A stretch of 64,000 bases of DNA from Microtetraspora malaysiensis (lineage in GTDB: Bacteria; Actinomycetota; Actinomycetes; Streptosporangiales; Streptosporangiaceae), in contig NZ_BBYJ01000030.1 of the NCBI RefSeq assembly GCF_001528665.1, positions 1-64,000 of the forward strand, given 5' to 3'. This document shows positions 1 through 8,124 of this stretch, piece after piece (within the stretch, counting starts at the first letter, position 1; the number at the start of each line of letters is the position of its first letter). The notes under the pieces were generated by a model. It did no database searches and was not told the DNA's origin. It saw nothing but the letters and a program-made list of their open reading frames with translations. Position numbers and translations under genes: made by a program.

Positions 1-2265
<2,265 letters not shown>

Positions 2266-2294: not shown

Positions 2295-3272
2295 TCAGTG
2301 CGTGTGCTCGCCGTGCCCGGCGGAACCGGACGGGGACTCGTCATGGCCGCCCTGCTCCCCGGACGCCGGGGCACCGTCCGCGTGGAGGGTGAAGTCCGCG
2401 GTGCGGACCTTGCCGTCGTGCTGGAAGTCCAGGAAGAGCCGGTAGTCACCGCGGCTGGGCGCCTCGGCGTAGAAGACGATCTCCGGACCCGGCTGGGTCT
2501 TGCCGTCGCCCGGCTCGCCATCGGGGTGCACGTGCAGGTAGGCCAAATCGCCGCCGCGCAACGCCACCAGGTGGCCGTACGCGCCGAGGTAGGGCTGCAG
2601 GTCGGTGACCGGCTTGCCGTCCTTGCTGACCTTGAGGGTGATCCGGCTCGTCCGGCCGGGGGCCAGGTCGCCGTCGAGGGTGACGGTGTATCCGTCCACC
2701 GTCGCCGTACGGCTCACGCCCGGCAGGGCCTTCGGCGCGTAGTCGCCCGCGGCGTACAGGTCGGCGCCGAGGGTCATGCCGCTGCCGCCTTCGGGGGCGA
2801 AGTCGGCGAACATCCGGTACGCGCCCGCCTCGGGAAGGGTCAGCGGCACCGACCACACACCGTCGCCGGCCTCGGCCGGGTGCAGGTGCTGGAAGTGGGA
2901 GAGGTCCCGGGAGACCACGATGAAGTGCAGCTTCTTTTCGTGCTGCACCTGGTAGCCGGTGACCGGCTTGCCGTCGGGCCCGGTGACCGTGAACCGGAAG
3001 TCCGTGTTCTTGCCCGGCTCGACCGTCGTGGTCAGCGTGGTGAGCGTGTAGCCGTTCTGGGACACCTCGAGCCCTCCTGGAATGGCCGCCGTGCCGGCGG
3101 GGGTCGCCTGGCCGGCGGCGGTGGGGGCACCGCCGTGGTCGCCGTGGACGCTGTGCTCCTCGGCGGCCGGCGGGGTGCCGACACCTCCCACGGCGGTGCC
3201 GACTCCGAAGGTCGCGCCGAAGACCACGGCGAGGCCGAGAACGTACGCTCCGAGCTTGGCGGGGGTGTTCAT
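2295..3272 (-). CDS. Secreted/anchored His-rich copper-operon protein with duplicated domain
   Basis: A 325-residue protein with one N-terminal hydrophobic segment (about residues 6-30), either a signal peptide or a membrane anchor, so the body lies outside the membrane. The body has two similar beta-rich halves. Both contain DGKPVT followed by a short His motif (LSHFQHLHP in the first, YLHVHP in the second) and then a RMFADF or RLFLDF strand. The C-terminus is His/Gly-rich and ends GEHTH. Its ATG overlaps the copZ stop (TGATG), which implies translational coupling. Position between copZ and copA and the clustered His suggest extracytoplasmic copper binding or buffering. That role is inferred; I do not recognise a characterised homologue. 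Confidence 0.85.
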   Translation of the reverse strand: MNTPAKLGAYVLGLAVVFGATFGVGTAVGGVGTPPAAEEHSVHGDHGGAPTAAGQATPAGTAAIPGGLEVSQNGYTLTTLTTTVEPGKNTDFRFTVTGPDGKPVTGYQVQHEKKLHFIVVSRDLSHFQHLHPAEAGDGVWSVPLTLPEAGAYRMFADFAPEGGSGMTLGADLYAAGDYAPKALPGVSRTATVDGYTVTLDGDLAPGRTSRITLKVSKDGKPVTDLQPYLGAYGHLVALRGGDLAYLHVHPDGEPGDGKTQPGPEIVFYAEAPSRGDYRLFLDFQHDGKVRTADFTLHADGAPASGEQGGHDESPSGSAGHGEHTH

Positions 3273-3481
3273 CAGCGATCCACCACTTCGTATCCGGCCT
3301 CTTCGACGGCGGCGGTGACCGCGGCCGCGTCCACGGGACCTTCGCTTTCAACTGTCACCAGGCCGGTGGCGAGGTCCACCTCGACGCGCGTGACGCCGGC
3401 GACCTCTCCGACCTCTTCCTTGACCGAGCTGACGCAGTGGCCGCAGGTCATGCCCTTGACGGTGTAGGTGGCGGTGGTCAT
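3272..3481 (-). CDS. copZ: CopZ-type copper chaperone (HMA domain)
   Basis: A 69-residue single heavy-metal-associated domain with the Cu(I)-binding loop GMTCGHC at residues 10-16. It should shuttle Cu(I) to CopA or to CsoR in the cytoplasm. The ATG at 3481 is chosen because it follows AGGAG at a good distance and gives the normal family length; an upstream in-frame extension of 40 residues is Arg/Pro-rich and not HMA-like. Second gene of the csoR operon; the stop overlaps the start of the next gene. It is one of three CopZ paralogues in the first 7.5 kb. Confidence 0.93.
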   Translation of the reverse strand: MTTATYTVKGMTCGHCVSSVKEEVGEVAGVTRVEVDLATGLVTVESEGPVDAAAVTAAVEEAGYEVVDR

Positions 3482-3518: not shown

Positions 3519-3800
3519 TCAGGAACGGACGAGGCGGGCGATGGCGTCGGAGGCTTCCTTGATCTTCGCCTCGGCTTCCGCACCGCCCTTCGCCGTAGCA
3601 TCCGCGACGCAGTGGGCCATGTGCTCGTCGAGGAGAGCGAGGGCGAAGGACTGGAGAGCGCGACTGGCCGCAGAGACCTGGGTGAGGATGTCGATGCAGT
3701 ATTTGTCTTCTTCGACCATCCGCTGCAGACCCCGGACCTGCCCCTCGATCCGGCGCAGCCGCCGGAGGTGCTCCTGCCCGGTGTCGCTGTATCCGGCCAT
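3519..3800 (-). CDS. csoR: CsoR-family copper-sensing repressor
   Basis: A 93-residue all-helical repressor without a classical HTH. The Cu(I) ligands of CsoR are all present: Cys35 (DKYCID), His60 and Cys64 (DEHMAHC). Copper binding releases the protein from its operator and derepresses copZ and copA. I prefer the ATG at 3800, which has GAGGAG upstream. An in-frame ATG at 3830, ten codons earlier, lies about 6 nt after a TATGGT hexamer and could serve a leaderless transcript. First gene of the copper operon; its own promoter region carries a CsoR-like box, so autoregulation is expected. Confidence 0.93.
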   Translation of the reverse strand: MAGYSDTGQEHLRRLRRIEGQVRGLQRMVEEDKYCIDILTQVSAASRALQSFALALLDEHMAHCVADATAKGGAEAEAKIKEASDAIARLVRS

Positions 3801-3836
3801 CTCCCCGCTCCTCTCGCTCAGGCTGCTCATGTTAAC

Positions 3837-3856
3837 ACCATACCCCCCTATGGTAT
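3837..3856 (-). promoter_or_regulatory. CsoR-like operator overlapping a -10 element (csoR operon)
   Basis: ATACC (3840-3844), seven bases, then GGTAT (3852-3856) form a 17-bp pseudo-palindrome with a C-rich centre, as known for actinobacterial CsoR operators (TACC, G/C tract, GGTA). Read on the minus strand, one arm runs into TATGGT (3842-3837), a plausible -10 hexamer. Bound CsoR would then block polymerase directly. Confidence 0.85.
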
Positions 3857-3913
3857 TTCGCCGAGTTCGGGGTACCCGGGCGCGCTCCGGATGGAGCGCG
3901 CCCCGTCCCCGCG

Positions 3914-5341
3914 TCAGGCTCCGACCGACGACGCCTCCCGCTCCCCGCTCTGTACGGCGGCGGCCTTCCGGCCGCGCATCAGCAGGAGGGTGAGCAGGGC
4001 GCCGAGCACGGCCACCGCGCCCGCGCCGACGAAGGCGGCCTGGAAGCCGTGGGTCAGCCTGGGCAGGTTCCCCAGCTCGGCCGCCCCCTGCGACGTGGCG
4101 ATCGCGGTCATAACGGCCAGGCCGAGCGCCGAGCCCACCTGGTAGGTGGTGTTGACGATGCCCGAGGCGAGGCCGCTCTCCTCCGGCCGGGCGCCGGACA
4201 TGGCCGACATCATGGCCGGAATGTAGGCCAGCGACATGCCGACCGCCGCCACCAGCGACGCGGGCAGCACATCGGCGGCGAAGGAGCCGTCAGGGTGGAC
4301 CAGGGAGAGTCCCCCGACGCCCGCGGCCAGGACGAGCAGGCCGATCACGATGAGCGGCTTGGCCCCGAACCGGCCGAGCAGCCGGGCGGTGATGCCGATC
4401 ATGAAGATCATGATCGCGATGGTCATCGGAAGCAGCGCCGCACCGCTCGGGAACGCGCCGTATCCCAGAACCTGCTGCAGGTAGAGGTTGAGGAAGTACC
4501 ACATCGGGATCCACGCGGCGCCGAGCAGCGCCATCGCCAGGTTGGCCGTGGCCAGCCCGGGGGTGCGCCAGATCCGGAGCGGCATGAGCGGCTCGCGGAC
4601 CGACCGCTGGATGACGAGGAACAGCACCAGCAGCACCACGGCTCCGACGCCCTGGACGATGGTGGCGCCGGCGCTCTGCTCGGGCGCCCGGACGATCGTG
4701 AACACGGCGAGGGCGATGCCGGCGGTGACCGCGACCGCGCCCAGCAGGTCGACCGATCCGCGCCTGCCCTGGACGGCCGGAAGCAGCGCGGGGACGGCGG
4801 CCAGCGTGGCCAGGCCGATCGGGACGTAGACGATGAACACCCACGGCCAGCTCAGGTATTCGGTGATGACGCCGCCGAGGAACACGCCCGCGGTGCCACC
4901 CGCCGGGGCGGCCGCGCCGTACAGGGCCATGGCCTTGCCGAGTTCGCGCTGGTCGTGCCCGAAGAGCATCATGAGCAGGGTCATCGCGGCGGGCGCGATC
5001 AGTGCGCCACCCACGCCCTGGACCGCCCGGCCGATGATCTCCAGCGCCGGGTTGCTCGCCGCCGCCGCGACGACGGATCCGGCGATCAGTACGACCCAGC
5101 CGGCGGTGAACACCTTGCGCGCGCCGAGCAGGTCGGAGAGCCGTCCGCCGAGCAGCAGCAGCCCGCCGAAGGCGACGACGTACGCGTTGAAGACCCACTG
5201 CAGGTCGCCCTGGGAGAAGCCCAGCTCGCGTTGCATGTCCGGTAAGGCGACTCCAATGATCGAGGTGTCCATGATGACCATGAACTGCGCGGCGGCGAGC
5301 ACGATCAGCGCCTGCCACCTGCGCGGATTGACGGCATTCAT
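3914..5341 (-). CDS. MFS drug/efflux transporter, DHA2 (14-helix) type
   Basis: A 475-residue major-facilitator protein expected to have 14 membrane segments. It exports a small molecule against the proton gradient. The N-terminal part has FMVIMDTSIIGVALPDM followed by LQWVFNAYVVAFGGLLLLGGRLSDLLG, typical of the EmrB/QacA group, with the loop-2 motif GGRLSDLLGARK. The ATG at 5341 follows AGGAG; an upstream in-frame stretch of 49 codons does not look like MFS sequence. It sits inside the copper block on the same strand, but no CsoR-like box lies in front of it, so a link to copper is only positional. Substrate unknown. Confidence 0.9.
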   Translation of the reverse strand: MNAVNPRRWQALIVLAAAQFMVIMDTSIIGVALPDMQRELGFSQGDLQWVFNAYVVAFGGLLLLGGRLSDLLGARKVFTAGWVVLIAGSVVAAAASNPALEIIGRAVQGVGGALIAPAAMTLLMMLFGHDQRELGKAMALYGAAAPAGGTAGVFLGGVITEYLSWPWVFIVYVPIGLATLAAVPALLPAVQGRRGSVDLLGAVAVTAGIALAVFTIVRAPEQSAGATIVQGVGAVVLLVLFLVIQRSVREPLMPLRIWRTPGLATANLAMALLGAAWIPMWYFLNLYLQQVLGYGAFPSGAALLPMTIAIMIFMIGITARLLGRFGAKPLIVIGLLVLAAGVGGLSLVHPDGSFAADVLPASLVAAVGMSLAYIPAMMSAMSGARPEESGLASGIVNTTYQVGSALGLAVMTAIATSQGAAELGNLPRLTHGFQAAFVGAGAVAVLGALLTLLLMRGRKAAAVQSGEREASSVGA

Positions 5342-5416
5342 GCCTGTCTCCTGGTTCTTCGCACCATAGGATGCGAAACGGGGATTGGGTGTGATGACGA
5401 GTCCGACCGGCCCCAG

Positions 5417-5444
5417 GTGGGCGTGCACGGCAATGCACGCCCAC
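5417..5444. other. Perfect 11-bp inverted repeat upstream of the MFS gene
   Basis: GTGGGCGTGCA (5417-5427) and TGCACGCCCAC (5434-5444) pair perfectly around a 6-base spacer. It lies 76 bp before the MFS start and 97 bp after the stop of the next CopZ gene. No T-run follows on either strand. It could be a repressor operator for the exporter or a mild terminator. Confidence 0.5.
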
Positions 5445-5540
5445 CCCTTATGTCCCGGGACGTTCTCCCGGCTCCCGGCGGGGGCCACTACTTCGCGGCC
5501 CTGCCGCGCGGCCCCTTGAGGGCTTTCCGCGTGACCTTTG

Positions 5541-5816
5541 CTAGGCCGGCGTCCCGGCCAGCTCGTAGCCGGCCTCCTCCACCGCGGCGCGGATCTCCTC
5601 GTCGGAGAAGCCCGCTCCGCTGACAGTGACGGCTCCGGCCGCCAGATCGACGGCCACGCCGGTCACCCCGGCGACCTTGCCGATCTCACCGGAGACCGAC
5701 GAGACGCAGTGACCGCAGGTCATGCCGCTGACCGAATAGACCCGCGTGGCGCCGTCACCGATCGCCACGGTCGTGGCAGCGGCCTCTCCGCTACAGCAGG
5801 AACATGCCGTGGACAT
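5541..5816 (-). CDS. CopZ-like HMA protein with extra N-terminal CSCC motif
   Basis: A 91-residue protein. Residues 1-9 are Cys-rich (ACSCCSG), a linker follows, and from about residue 26 there is a complete HMA fold with GMTCGHC. The HMA part is a Cu(I) chaperone. The N-terminal Cys cluster is an addition not present in the two other CopZ copies here and may be a second metal site. AAGGAGGG lies ahead of the ATG. Two CsoR-like boxes lie just upstream, so it should be copper-inducible as a separate transcript from csoR-copA. Confidence 0.88.
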   Translation of the reverse strand: MSTACSCCSGEAAATTVAIGDGATRVYSVSGMTCGHCVSSVSGEIGKVAGVTGVAVDLAAGAVTVSGAGFSDEEIRAAVEEAGYELAGTPA

Positions 5817-5836
5817 GAGCTTCCCTCCTTGGCCAG

Positions 5837-5890
5837 ATACCCATGGGGGGTATCCATCGGCGAGAAACGTAACATACCCCCTAGGGGTTT
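5837..5890 (-). promoter_or_regulatory. Two CsoR-like boxes before the CSCC-type CopZ gene
   Basis: Box 1 is ATACC (5837-5841), N7, GGTAT (5849-5853), perfect in both arms. Box 2 is ATACC (5874-5878), N7, GGTTT (5886-5890), with one base off in one arm. Both have the same 17-bp geometry and G/C-rich centres as the csoR box. They are 37 bp apart, between the FAD reductase stop and the CopZ-like start. Confidence 0.8.
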
Positions 5891-5905
5891 CTCAAGCGGT
5901 GGGGA

Positions 5906-7123
5906 TCAGGAAGTTGCGGCTTCGAGGACATCCCCGGCGGCGATTCCGCGCTTCAGCCGGTTCAGTTCCTTCGGCGCGTTCACCCCGACGGCGCCCACGA
6001 GGACACCACCCCTGAGGAAGGCCACGACGAAGCTGCCCTCTTCCGGCGCACCGTGCACCGTTCGCGCCTCGTCGGCGAGGTGGGGCAGGCCGGCGGTCTG
6101 GATCCGCGCCCCATGCGTGTGCGTCCCGAACGCGGGCACGTCCGCGTACGGCACGGCGCTCTCGGGGCCGGCGAGAAGGTTGCGCGCGGCCACCGCCCCC
6201 TGGGCATTGGCGTTGGCCCAGTGCTCCACCCGCACGAGCGCGCCCCCGTACAACTCGTGCCGCCAGCGCGCGACGTCGCCGGCCGCGACGATGGTCGACG
6301 TCCCCTCGGCGAACAGCGACGGCGTGCAGACCACTCCGTCGTCGAGCGTGAGACCGCTGCCTTCCAGCCACTCGACGTTGGGCACGATGCCCATGCCCGC
6401 GACGACGAGGTCGGCCGGGATCGACCGCCCGTCTTCGAGTCGCACGCCGGTCACCCGGCCGTCCCTGCTCTCGAAACCGGCCACCCGGATGCCGGAGATC
6501 AACTCGACACCGTTCTTCTGGTGGTGGGCGGCCAGCCACCGCGCCGTGTCCACCCCGAGGACGCGGTGCATCGGGTAGGGCCCGGCGTCGACGAGCGTCA
6601 CGGTCAGGCCGAGCGCCCTGGCCGTCGAGGCGATCTCCCCGCCGATGAATCCTCCACCGACGATGACCAGGTTCCGGTGCCCGGCATCGAGCTCGGCGCG
6701 CAGCGCCAGCGCGTCGTCGATCGTGCGCAGTTCGTGGACTCCCCCGGGCCGTTCGGCGAGCCGCCGCGGCCTGGCTCCGGTCGCGATGACCAGGCCGTCG
6801 AACGGGATCTCCGTGCCGTCGTCCAGGGTTATGGAGCCACCCCCGGTGCTCGCGGTGGCGGCACCCGGGCTTCTGTCGACGCGCAGCCTTACGGCCCGCC
6901 GGTTCCCGAGCCACTCCCCGCCGAGTTCCTCGGCACCGGGAAGGGTCACGTCGTCGTCACCGCGTAGCACGCTCTTCGAGAGTGGCGGACGGTTGTACGG
7001 CCGGTGCGTCTCCGCGCCGATCAGGGTGATGTCACCGGCGAATCCCTCGCTACGCAGGGTCTGCACGGCGCGCAATCCGGCAAGGGACGCGCCGACGACC
7101 GCGATTCTGCTCATGTCTGCCAT
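5906..7123 (-). CDS. FAD/NAD(P)-dependent oxidoreductase, ferredoxin-reductase type
   Basis: A 405-residue flavoprotein of the BphA4/putidaredoxin-reductase group that moves electrons from NAD(P)H through FAD to a partner protein. The first Rossmann motif VVGASLAG lies near the N-terminus, with RPYNRPPLSK after it as in this family. The NAD(P) motif IVGGGFIGGE is near residue 150, and AAGDVARW near the second FAD site. A C-terminal reductase domain follows. The start is ATG 7123 (MADMSRI) or 7114 (MSRI); neither has a good ribosome site, but a TATGGT element about 9 bases upstream suggests a leaderless transcript. A CsoR-like box overlaps that element. No ferredoxin gene is adjacent. Confidence 0.9.
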   Translation of the reverse strand: MADMSRIAVVGASLAGLRAVQTLRSEGFAGDITLIGAETHRPYNRPPLSKSVLRGDDDVTLPGAEELGGEWLGNRRAVRLRVDRSPGAATASTGGGSITLDDGTEIPFDGLVIATGARPRRLAERPGGVHELRTIDDALALRAELDAGHRNLVIVGGGFIGGEIASTARALGLTVTLVDAGPYPMHRVLGVDTARWLAAHHQKNGVELISGIRVAGFESRDGRVTGVRLEDGRSIPADLVVAGMGIVPNVEWLEGSGLTLDDGVVCTPSLFAEGTSTIVAAGDVARWRHELYGGALVRVEHWANANAQGAVAARNLLAGPESAVPYADVPAFGTHTHGARIQTAGLPHLADEARTVHGAPEEGSFVVAFLRGGVLVGAVGVNAPKELNRLKRGIAAGDVLEAATS

Positions 7124-7134
7124 GTCGCTGAACC

Positions 7135-7151
7135 ATACCGGGGTAGGGTAG
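7135..7151 (-). promoter_or_regulatory. CsoR-like box at the FAD reductase promoter
   Basis: ATACC (7135-7139), seven G/C-rich bases, then GGTAG (7147-7151): same spacing as the csoR box with one mismatch in an arm. On the minus strand the arm continues into TATGGT (7137-7132), matching the csoR promoter arrangement. Confidence 0.68.
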
Positions 7152-7178
7152 GGCTGGCGATGTGATGTGGATCTCACA

Positions 7179-7255
7179 GTACCTATGGGGGGTATGTCTT
7201 GCGGTGTCGCCGCCCGCATGACTATCTTTCCCTGGACGTTACCCACCCGGGGTAT
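7179..7255 (+). promoter_or_regulatory. Two CsoR-like boxes before copZ paralogue 3
   Basis: Box 1 is GTACC (7179-7183), N7, GGTAT (7191-7195). Box 2 is TTACC (7239-7243), N7, GGTAT (7251-7255). Each has one altered first base and otherwise the same 17-bp pattern. Box 2 ends 15 bases before the copZ ATG, next to its ribosome site, so it could also block a promoter placed between the boxes. Confidence 0.78.
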
Positions 7256-7270
7256 TTGCGAAGGAGCGAC

Positions 7271-7480
7271 ATGAGCGTCAGCACGTACACCGTCACCGGC
7301 ATGACCTGCGGCCACTGCGTGGGCACGGTGACGTCCGAAATCGGCAAGGTCACCGGGGTCACCGGCGTCGAGGTCGAGCTGGCGACCGGCAAGGTGACCG
7401 TGACCAGCGACAGCCCGCTGAACGAGACCCTCGTGCGGGACGCCGTCGAAGAGGCGGGCTACGAGCTCGTGGCCGGCTGA
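7271..7480 (+). CDS. CopZ-type copper chaperone (HMA domain), third copy
   Basis: A 69-residue HMA protein with GMTCGHC at residues 10-16, close in sequence to the csoR-linked CopZ. The ATG follows GAAGGAGCGAC, a strong ribosome site; a longer in-frame reading to 7199 would cross the operator region. Transcribed away from the FAD reductase, as a single gene with its own CsoR-like boxes and its own terminator. Confidence 0.93.
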   Translation: MSVSTYTVTGMTCGHCVGTVTSEIGKVTGVTGVEVELATGKVTVTSDSPLNETLVRDAVEEAGYELVAG

Positions 7481-7572: not shown

Positions 7573-8124
7573 GTGCTACCTGCTCAGCTGACGAGGCAGG
7601 GGACCCGCCGCCGCCCAGAGCGGTGGCGTGCGCGCGGCGGCGCGGCGCCGGCGGACGTCACCGTGCTTCTGGTGCTTTACGGCGCAGGAGGCGCGGCCGG
7701 GAACTTCATCGCCGGATACACGGTGAACAAGAGTTTGCGGGGCAGCTTCATCGCCGGCCTCGCGGGACTCGTGGTGTCCTTGCTGTTGCTGCTCACGGTC
7801 GGTCACGGGCCGGCCGGTTCGATCATCTCGCTGACCCTCTGGGGAGTTTCCTTCGGCGTCGTGCAGCTGTGCCAGCTCAACATGACGCAGGCCGCCGCAC
7901 CCGACACCTTCGAAGCCGCGATGTCCCTCAACACCATGGCCTACAACACGTCCATCGCCCTCGGCGCGCTCTTCGGCGGACTGTTCGCCGACCATCTGGG
8001 CGTCACAAGTGTCGTCTGGTTCGGCCTGGCACTGACCGCGGCCGCGCTGCTCCTCACGCTCGGCACCCGCCAGAAGACCGCACGCACCGTCCCCGACGAC
8101 GCGTTGGCGCCCGCCGGCAAATAG
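7573..8124 (+). pseudogene. C-terminal half of an MFS transporter (truncated)
   Basis: Reading from GTG 7573 gives 183 residues. Residues about 28-165 match the last membrane helices of a 12-helix DHA1-type sugar or drug exporter, including NFIAGYTVNKSLRG and a helix pair ending in FGGLFADHLG. A normal member has about 400 residues; the first six or seven helices are absent. The first 27 residues are Arg-rich and not transporter-like. No N-terminal half lies upstream, where copZ and its terminator stand. This is most likely a deletion remnant. Confidence 0.75.

Follow-up and report, generated by a model that had tools for sequence, protein, structure and literature searches.

A block of copper genes opens the 64,000-nucleotide stretch of Microtetraspora malaysiensis DNA analysed here (the window), which is the start of contig 30 in the 8.8-Mb genome of this Streptosporangiaceae-type soil actinobacterium, and 17-bp palindromes of the form ATACC-N7-GGTAT stand in front of its genes. 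Are these boxes operators of the copper repressor CsoR, and which genes would they place under copper control? We consider it very probable (about 0.88) that six such boxes are type-2 operators from which CsoR would be released by Cu(I), and that the promoter of a FAD-dependent reductase gene receives an additional input from a CRP/FNR-family regulator. Binding of CsoR, its release by copper, the identity of the activator and the role of the enzyme are what we infer in this reading.

Genes of the copper block

On the minus strand, domain matches identified copA, encoding a copper-exporting P-type ATPase (1..2265), the gene of a YtkA-like protein that is probably secreted or membrane-anchored (2295..3272), and copZ1, encoding a copper chaperone with an HMA domain (3272..3481). 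These genes share a unit with csoR (3519..3800, minus strand; PF02583), for which the start at 3800 (MAGYS, with a ribosome site) is probably correct rather than 3830. A leaderless csoR read from the ATG at 3830 was dropped: the paralogues on contigs C14 and C17 begin, after a ribosome site, at the position that corresponds to 3800, which makes a short leader likelier. Also on the minus strand are copZ2 (5541..5816; HMA domain) and the gene of a FAD-dependent NAD(P)H reductase (5906..7123), a ferredoxin-reductase-like protein with Pyr_redox_2 and Reductase_C domains and one cysteine. A third chaperone gene, copZ3 (7271..7480; HMA domain match), is read from the plus strand. Ahead of the HMA domain, CopZ2 is extended at its N terminus by a segment containing CSCC, where an additional metal might bind.

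Window position 1 is a contig end within a repeat (1-2276). The copA gene shares 99% identity with a second copy, at C14:1-2273, and the C14 contig breaks at the same base, whereas the csoR and copZ parts of the window are only ~90% identical to C14; this difference suggests gene conversion or a recent duplication of copA. An MFS gene of the window, considered as a possible fifth member, is without a box in the motif scan of this stretch; it is separated from copZ2 by a strong hairpin (-28 kcal/mol) and directly follows the FAD-reductase gene in two relatives (L071, L079). Upstream of it, a perfect inverted repeat, TTCGCA-N8-TGCGAA (5358-5377), surrounds a TATGGT hexamer and possibly serves another repressor as operator. 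The open frame at 7573-8124 covers only positions 28-179 of the 347 of the MFS_1 model and is probably a truncated transporter gene.

Six boxes cluster between the genes

A preliminary description of the window had placed six CsoR-like boxes of constant length upstream of the genes of this block. We found them at 3840-3856, 5837-5853, 5874-5890, 7135-7151, 7179-7195 and 7239-7255, each 17 bp long and with zero or one mismatch to ATACC-N7-GGTAT, and all six centres fell within the 521 intergenic bases of 3519-7480. No other site with zero or one mismatch occurs in the 64-kb window. In a first-order Markov simulation 0.17 sites were expected per 64 kb, no 3.4-kb interval held more than one site across 400 runs, and the Poisson probability of six sites was below 1e-14. 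Five of the six boxes have the TAC-N9-GTA geometry with G/C tracts that marks type-2 operators; in the box at 5874 one arm is altered to GTT instead of GTA. Since one-arm variants of this kind recur in relatives, they are probably weaker real sites.

Boxes lie over or around predicted promoters

As expected of operators, the boxes lie beside or over predicted promoters of copper genes. The box of the csoR-copZ1-ytkA-copA unit (3840..3856, minus strand) ends in a TAT that begins the -10 element TATGGT (3837-3842), and this promoter form is matched at the csoR genes of C14 and C17. At copZ2, the altered box (5874..5890, minus strand; GTT on the plus strand) runs into the -10 element TATGTT (5871-5876), a variant also present in Microtetraspora fusca (L032) and in L064; the second copZ2 box (5837..5853, minus strand), located in the predicted 5' leader, is kept in the same two relatives. 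The box of the FAD-reductase gene (7135..7151, minus strand) runs into a TATGGT -10 element (7132-7137). Because its ATG at 7123 follows only 8 bases past this element, the reductase would have a near-leaderless start, an arrangement common to most relatives, and its promoter has no clear -35 element. The GGTAT arm thus runs into a -10 element at three promoters; the overlap described earlier for csoR and the reductase gene held and could be extended to copZ2, but it does not apply to the copZ3 box, which lies downstream of the predicted start.

The copZ3 promoter is predicted at 7199..7228 on the plus strand (TTGCGG at 7199-7204, an 18-bp spacer and TATCTT at 7223-7228), and the -35 TTGC and the -10 positions were found again in relatives. 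One box, the middle one of the divergent region (7179..7195), lies just upstream of the -35 element, and the copZ3 box (7239..7255, plus strand), recognised by its motif match, lies just 3' of the predicted transcription start; this flanking arrangement is kept in relatives. The middle box is supported by its motif match and by its spacing: in L032, L035, L071, L073 and L075-L077, from several genera, the neighbouring boxes are 43-45 and 58-61 bp away. By this prediction, copZ3 is controlled via boxes that flank its promoter and not via one placed over the -10 element.

The probable regulon extends beyond the window

Pattern searches of the whole genome for the 17-bp box (zero or one mismatch plus a run of four G or C bases), as the preliminary description had proposed, returned 13 sites. 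Ten are at copper loci (the six of the window, one at C14 and three at C17:317-322k), one is at a CstR-type locus and two are elsewhere, one of these within a gene. The C17 sites precede csoR, a gene of the CMD family (AhpD-like) and a unit encoding a YtkA-like protein, a CMD protein and an MFS transporter. In all, two further csoR loci of the genome carry boxes. A copper regulon is very likely. The four units assigned to it earlier stood for the local block, where copper genes lie 3' of the boxes, but they are only its local part, because the boxes at C14 and C17 take it beyond four units.

The FAD-reductase box is conserved with its subfamily

Relatives were drawn from the family level, the genus being represented by one genome. 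The closest named relative at the locus is M. fusca, with 90% identity in the FAD reductase and six boxes in the same order as in the window; in Streptosporangiaceae, Actinomadura and Nocardia the boxes are kept while the spacer letters vary. Including the window, we compared 38 FAD-reductase loci of 55-100% identity from Nonomuraea, Actinomadura, Nocardia and others, some of which are the same species from two collections, leaving 30 distinct promoter sequences. A CsoR box stood upstream of the orthologue in all 38 loci and all 30 distinct promoters, and in most of these loci a divergent copZ3-like gene adjoins the reductase gene. None of 20 distant homologues (17 loci of 23-40% identity and three paralogues of the same genome of 43-44%) had a box. 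Presence at all orthologues and absence from these distant homologues argue strongly that the box is a feature of this subfamily. The reductase also contains His200, Trp287 and His337, residues not found in the paralogues of the same genome. A role as thiol-disulfide reductase was ruled out, as these flavoproteins have at most two cysteines, none of them conserved.

A CRP/FNR-like dyad accompanies the FAD-reductase promoter

Between the boxes of the divergent region we noticed an element that the preliminary description had missed, the CRP/FNR-like dyad GAGA-N6-TCAC (GAGATCCACATCAC; 7162..7175, minus strand), centred ~43 bp ahead of the start predicted for the FAD-reductase gene. In E. coli, class II activators are centred at -41.5, close to this distance. 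In 27 of the 38 loci the FAD-reductase box is preceded, at a distance of 22-26 bp, by a G(T/A)GA-N6-TCAC dyad; among 19 non-redundant promoters 13 have it and six do not. The dyad was almost never found at other offsets, and shuffled sequences gave a mean of 0.03 and a maximum of 2. Against the TGTGA-N6-TCACA core, GTGA-N6-TCAC was present with zero or one mismatch in 13 of the 19 promoters, the window copy (GAGA) having one mismatch. The dyad also resembles the CRP/GlxR consensus TGTGANNTANNTCACA (PMC4254451). It is probably a second regulatory input, and the one strong Crp homologue of the genome, at C17:335917, would be the candidate binder.

CsoR, its paralogues and competing readings

The local CsoR scored 104 bits against PF02583 (cut-off 22.8), and its best solved relative is CsoR of Streptomyces lividans (4adz, 132 bits). 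Aligned with its paralogues and 4adz, it has the Cu(I) ligands Cys45-His70-Cys74, and the RLxR DNA-contact motif of helix 1, defined for CsoR (PMC3902906), reads RLRR in all four CsoR-type paralogues of the genome, which also encodes two CstR-type members. Together with the fit of the boxes to the Streptomyces operator, these features speak for the CsoR recognition claimed at the outset, binding itself being predicted. Over the 93 residues that they share, the C14 CsoR and the local one differ at a single position, and their boxes at a single base; the csoR box at C17:318451 is letter for letter the window csoR 17-mer; the fourth CsoR, at C17:4297, is without a box of its own.

That the boxes are chance G/C-rich palindromes is extremely improbable. 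The bare TACC-N7-GGTA is indeed not enriched genome-wide (28 sites against 48 for the reversed control), but this reading was refuted by the intergenic clustering and by conservation across genera, to which the G-tracts add. A more serious alternative, which we regard as rather doubtful, is that the boxes are read mainly by another CsoR, such as that at C17:4297, or partly by CstR-type persulfide sensors, so that the block would not be under its own CsoR alone. The number of paralogues and the identical box at C17:318451 fit this idea, CstR-type genes at C5 and C11 have close look-alike boxes upstream, and action at distant sites is known from the S. lividans regulator as well (PMC3902906). 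The look-alikes deviate, however, in spacing or in one arm, autoregulation from a box at csoR itself is the usual layout, and the C14 protein, given the single residue difference, would act identically. With four paralogues, 'the' repressor is ambiguous and sequence does not decide which one dominates at the boxes; since boxes of similar form also accompany the CstR-type regulators encoded here, sequence alone is no proof of the regulator. We retain CsoR-type control of the block as the preferred reading.

The dyad at 7162-7175 could instead serve as an extended promoter element or be bound by some other dimeric repressor, an explanation that we consider less likely than not. Its half-sites are often uneven (GAGA/TCAC), and in some relatives a TTGCC-like stretch follows; on the other hand, GTGA-N6-TCAC fits the CRP/GlxR core, and a centre near -43 is near the class II position.

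Discussion

We propose that apo-CsoR, from the local gene, the near-identical C14 copy or another paralogue, would occupy each box as two tetramers. It would cover the -10 element at csoR, copZ2 and the FAD-reductase gene and sit on both sides of the copZ3 promoter, and the additional boxes of copZ2 and of the divergent region would make repression stronger. Once Cu(I) occupies the Cys-His-Cys site, CsoR would be released, and the exporter CopA, the chaperones CopZ1-3, the FAD reductase and the YtkA-like protein would be switched on. A CRP/FNR-family activator, bound ~43 bp ahead of the start, is probably also required at the FAD-reductase promoter, which would then answer to copper as well as to a second signal, metabolic or redox.

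In S. lividans, the CsoR operator is a 21-nt pseudopalindrome, ATATACCCCTNAGGGGTATAT, and its TAC-X9-GTA inverted repeat around G-tracts is indispensable, since binding was lost when any base of the repeat was complemented in both arms; the CsoR-4375 regulon has operators at csoR, copZA1 and copZA2 (PMC3902906). The window shares with it the type-2 operator ATATACCCC-N5-GGGGTATAT in TAC-N9-GTA geometry, the CsoR ligands and RLxR, copZ and copA as targets and a box at csoR itself. It differs in having more boxes per promoter (two at copZ2; two outer and a shared middle one at the FAD reductase and copZ3), csoR in one operon with copZ and copA, a FAD reductase as target, a CRP-like site in one promoter and four CsoR paralogues. 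The mycobacterial RicR regulon (NCBIfam NF052430) likewise has a CsoR-family copper repressor at several scattered promoters, but the window CsoR reaches 145 bits where the cut-off is 175, and the targets differ. CstR-type persulfide-sensing repressors belong to the same protein family and have similar G-tract boxes in this genome; unlike the window CsoR, they have no copper-binding His where the alignment would place it and adjoin rhodanese and beta-lactamase-fold hydrolase genes. Two CstR-type regulators, in L025 (3578-4587) and L026 (4101-5599), have CsoR-like boxes, and boxes of this type precede rhodanese, sulfite-exporter-like and beta-lactamase-fold hydrolase genes.

The predicted regulon is a real, well-conserved CsoR regulon of a known kind, and a multi-box copper regulon is hereby confirmed from sequence in a little-studied actinobacterial family. 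What the analysis adds is a flavoenzyme as a constant box-bearing member, together with the conserved CRP/FNR-like site. A literature search, with most subscription journals outside its coverage, returned nothing relevant on a CsoR-controlled FAD reductase. We infer an NAD(P)H-driven reductase role of the flavoprotein in copper handling. Tentatively, and at somewhat less than an even chance, this ferredoxin-reductase-like subfamily may be a dedicated copper-response enzyme in several actinobacterial genera; it might, for instance, use NAD(P)H to reduce Cu(II) or quinones and so feed CopZ and CopA, and its promoter would combine CsoR de-repression with CRP/FNR-family activation. If the proposal is true, copper export would be linked to metabolic state through joint CsoR and CRP/FNR-family control.
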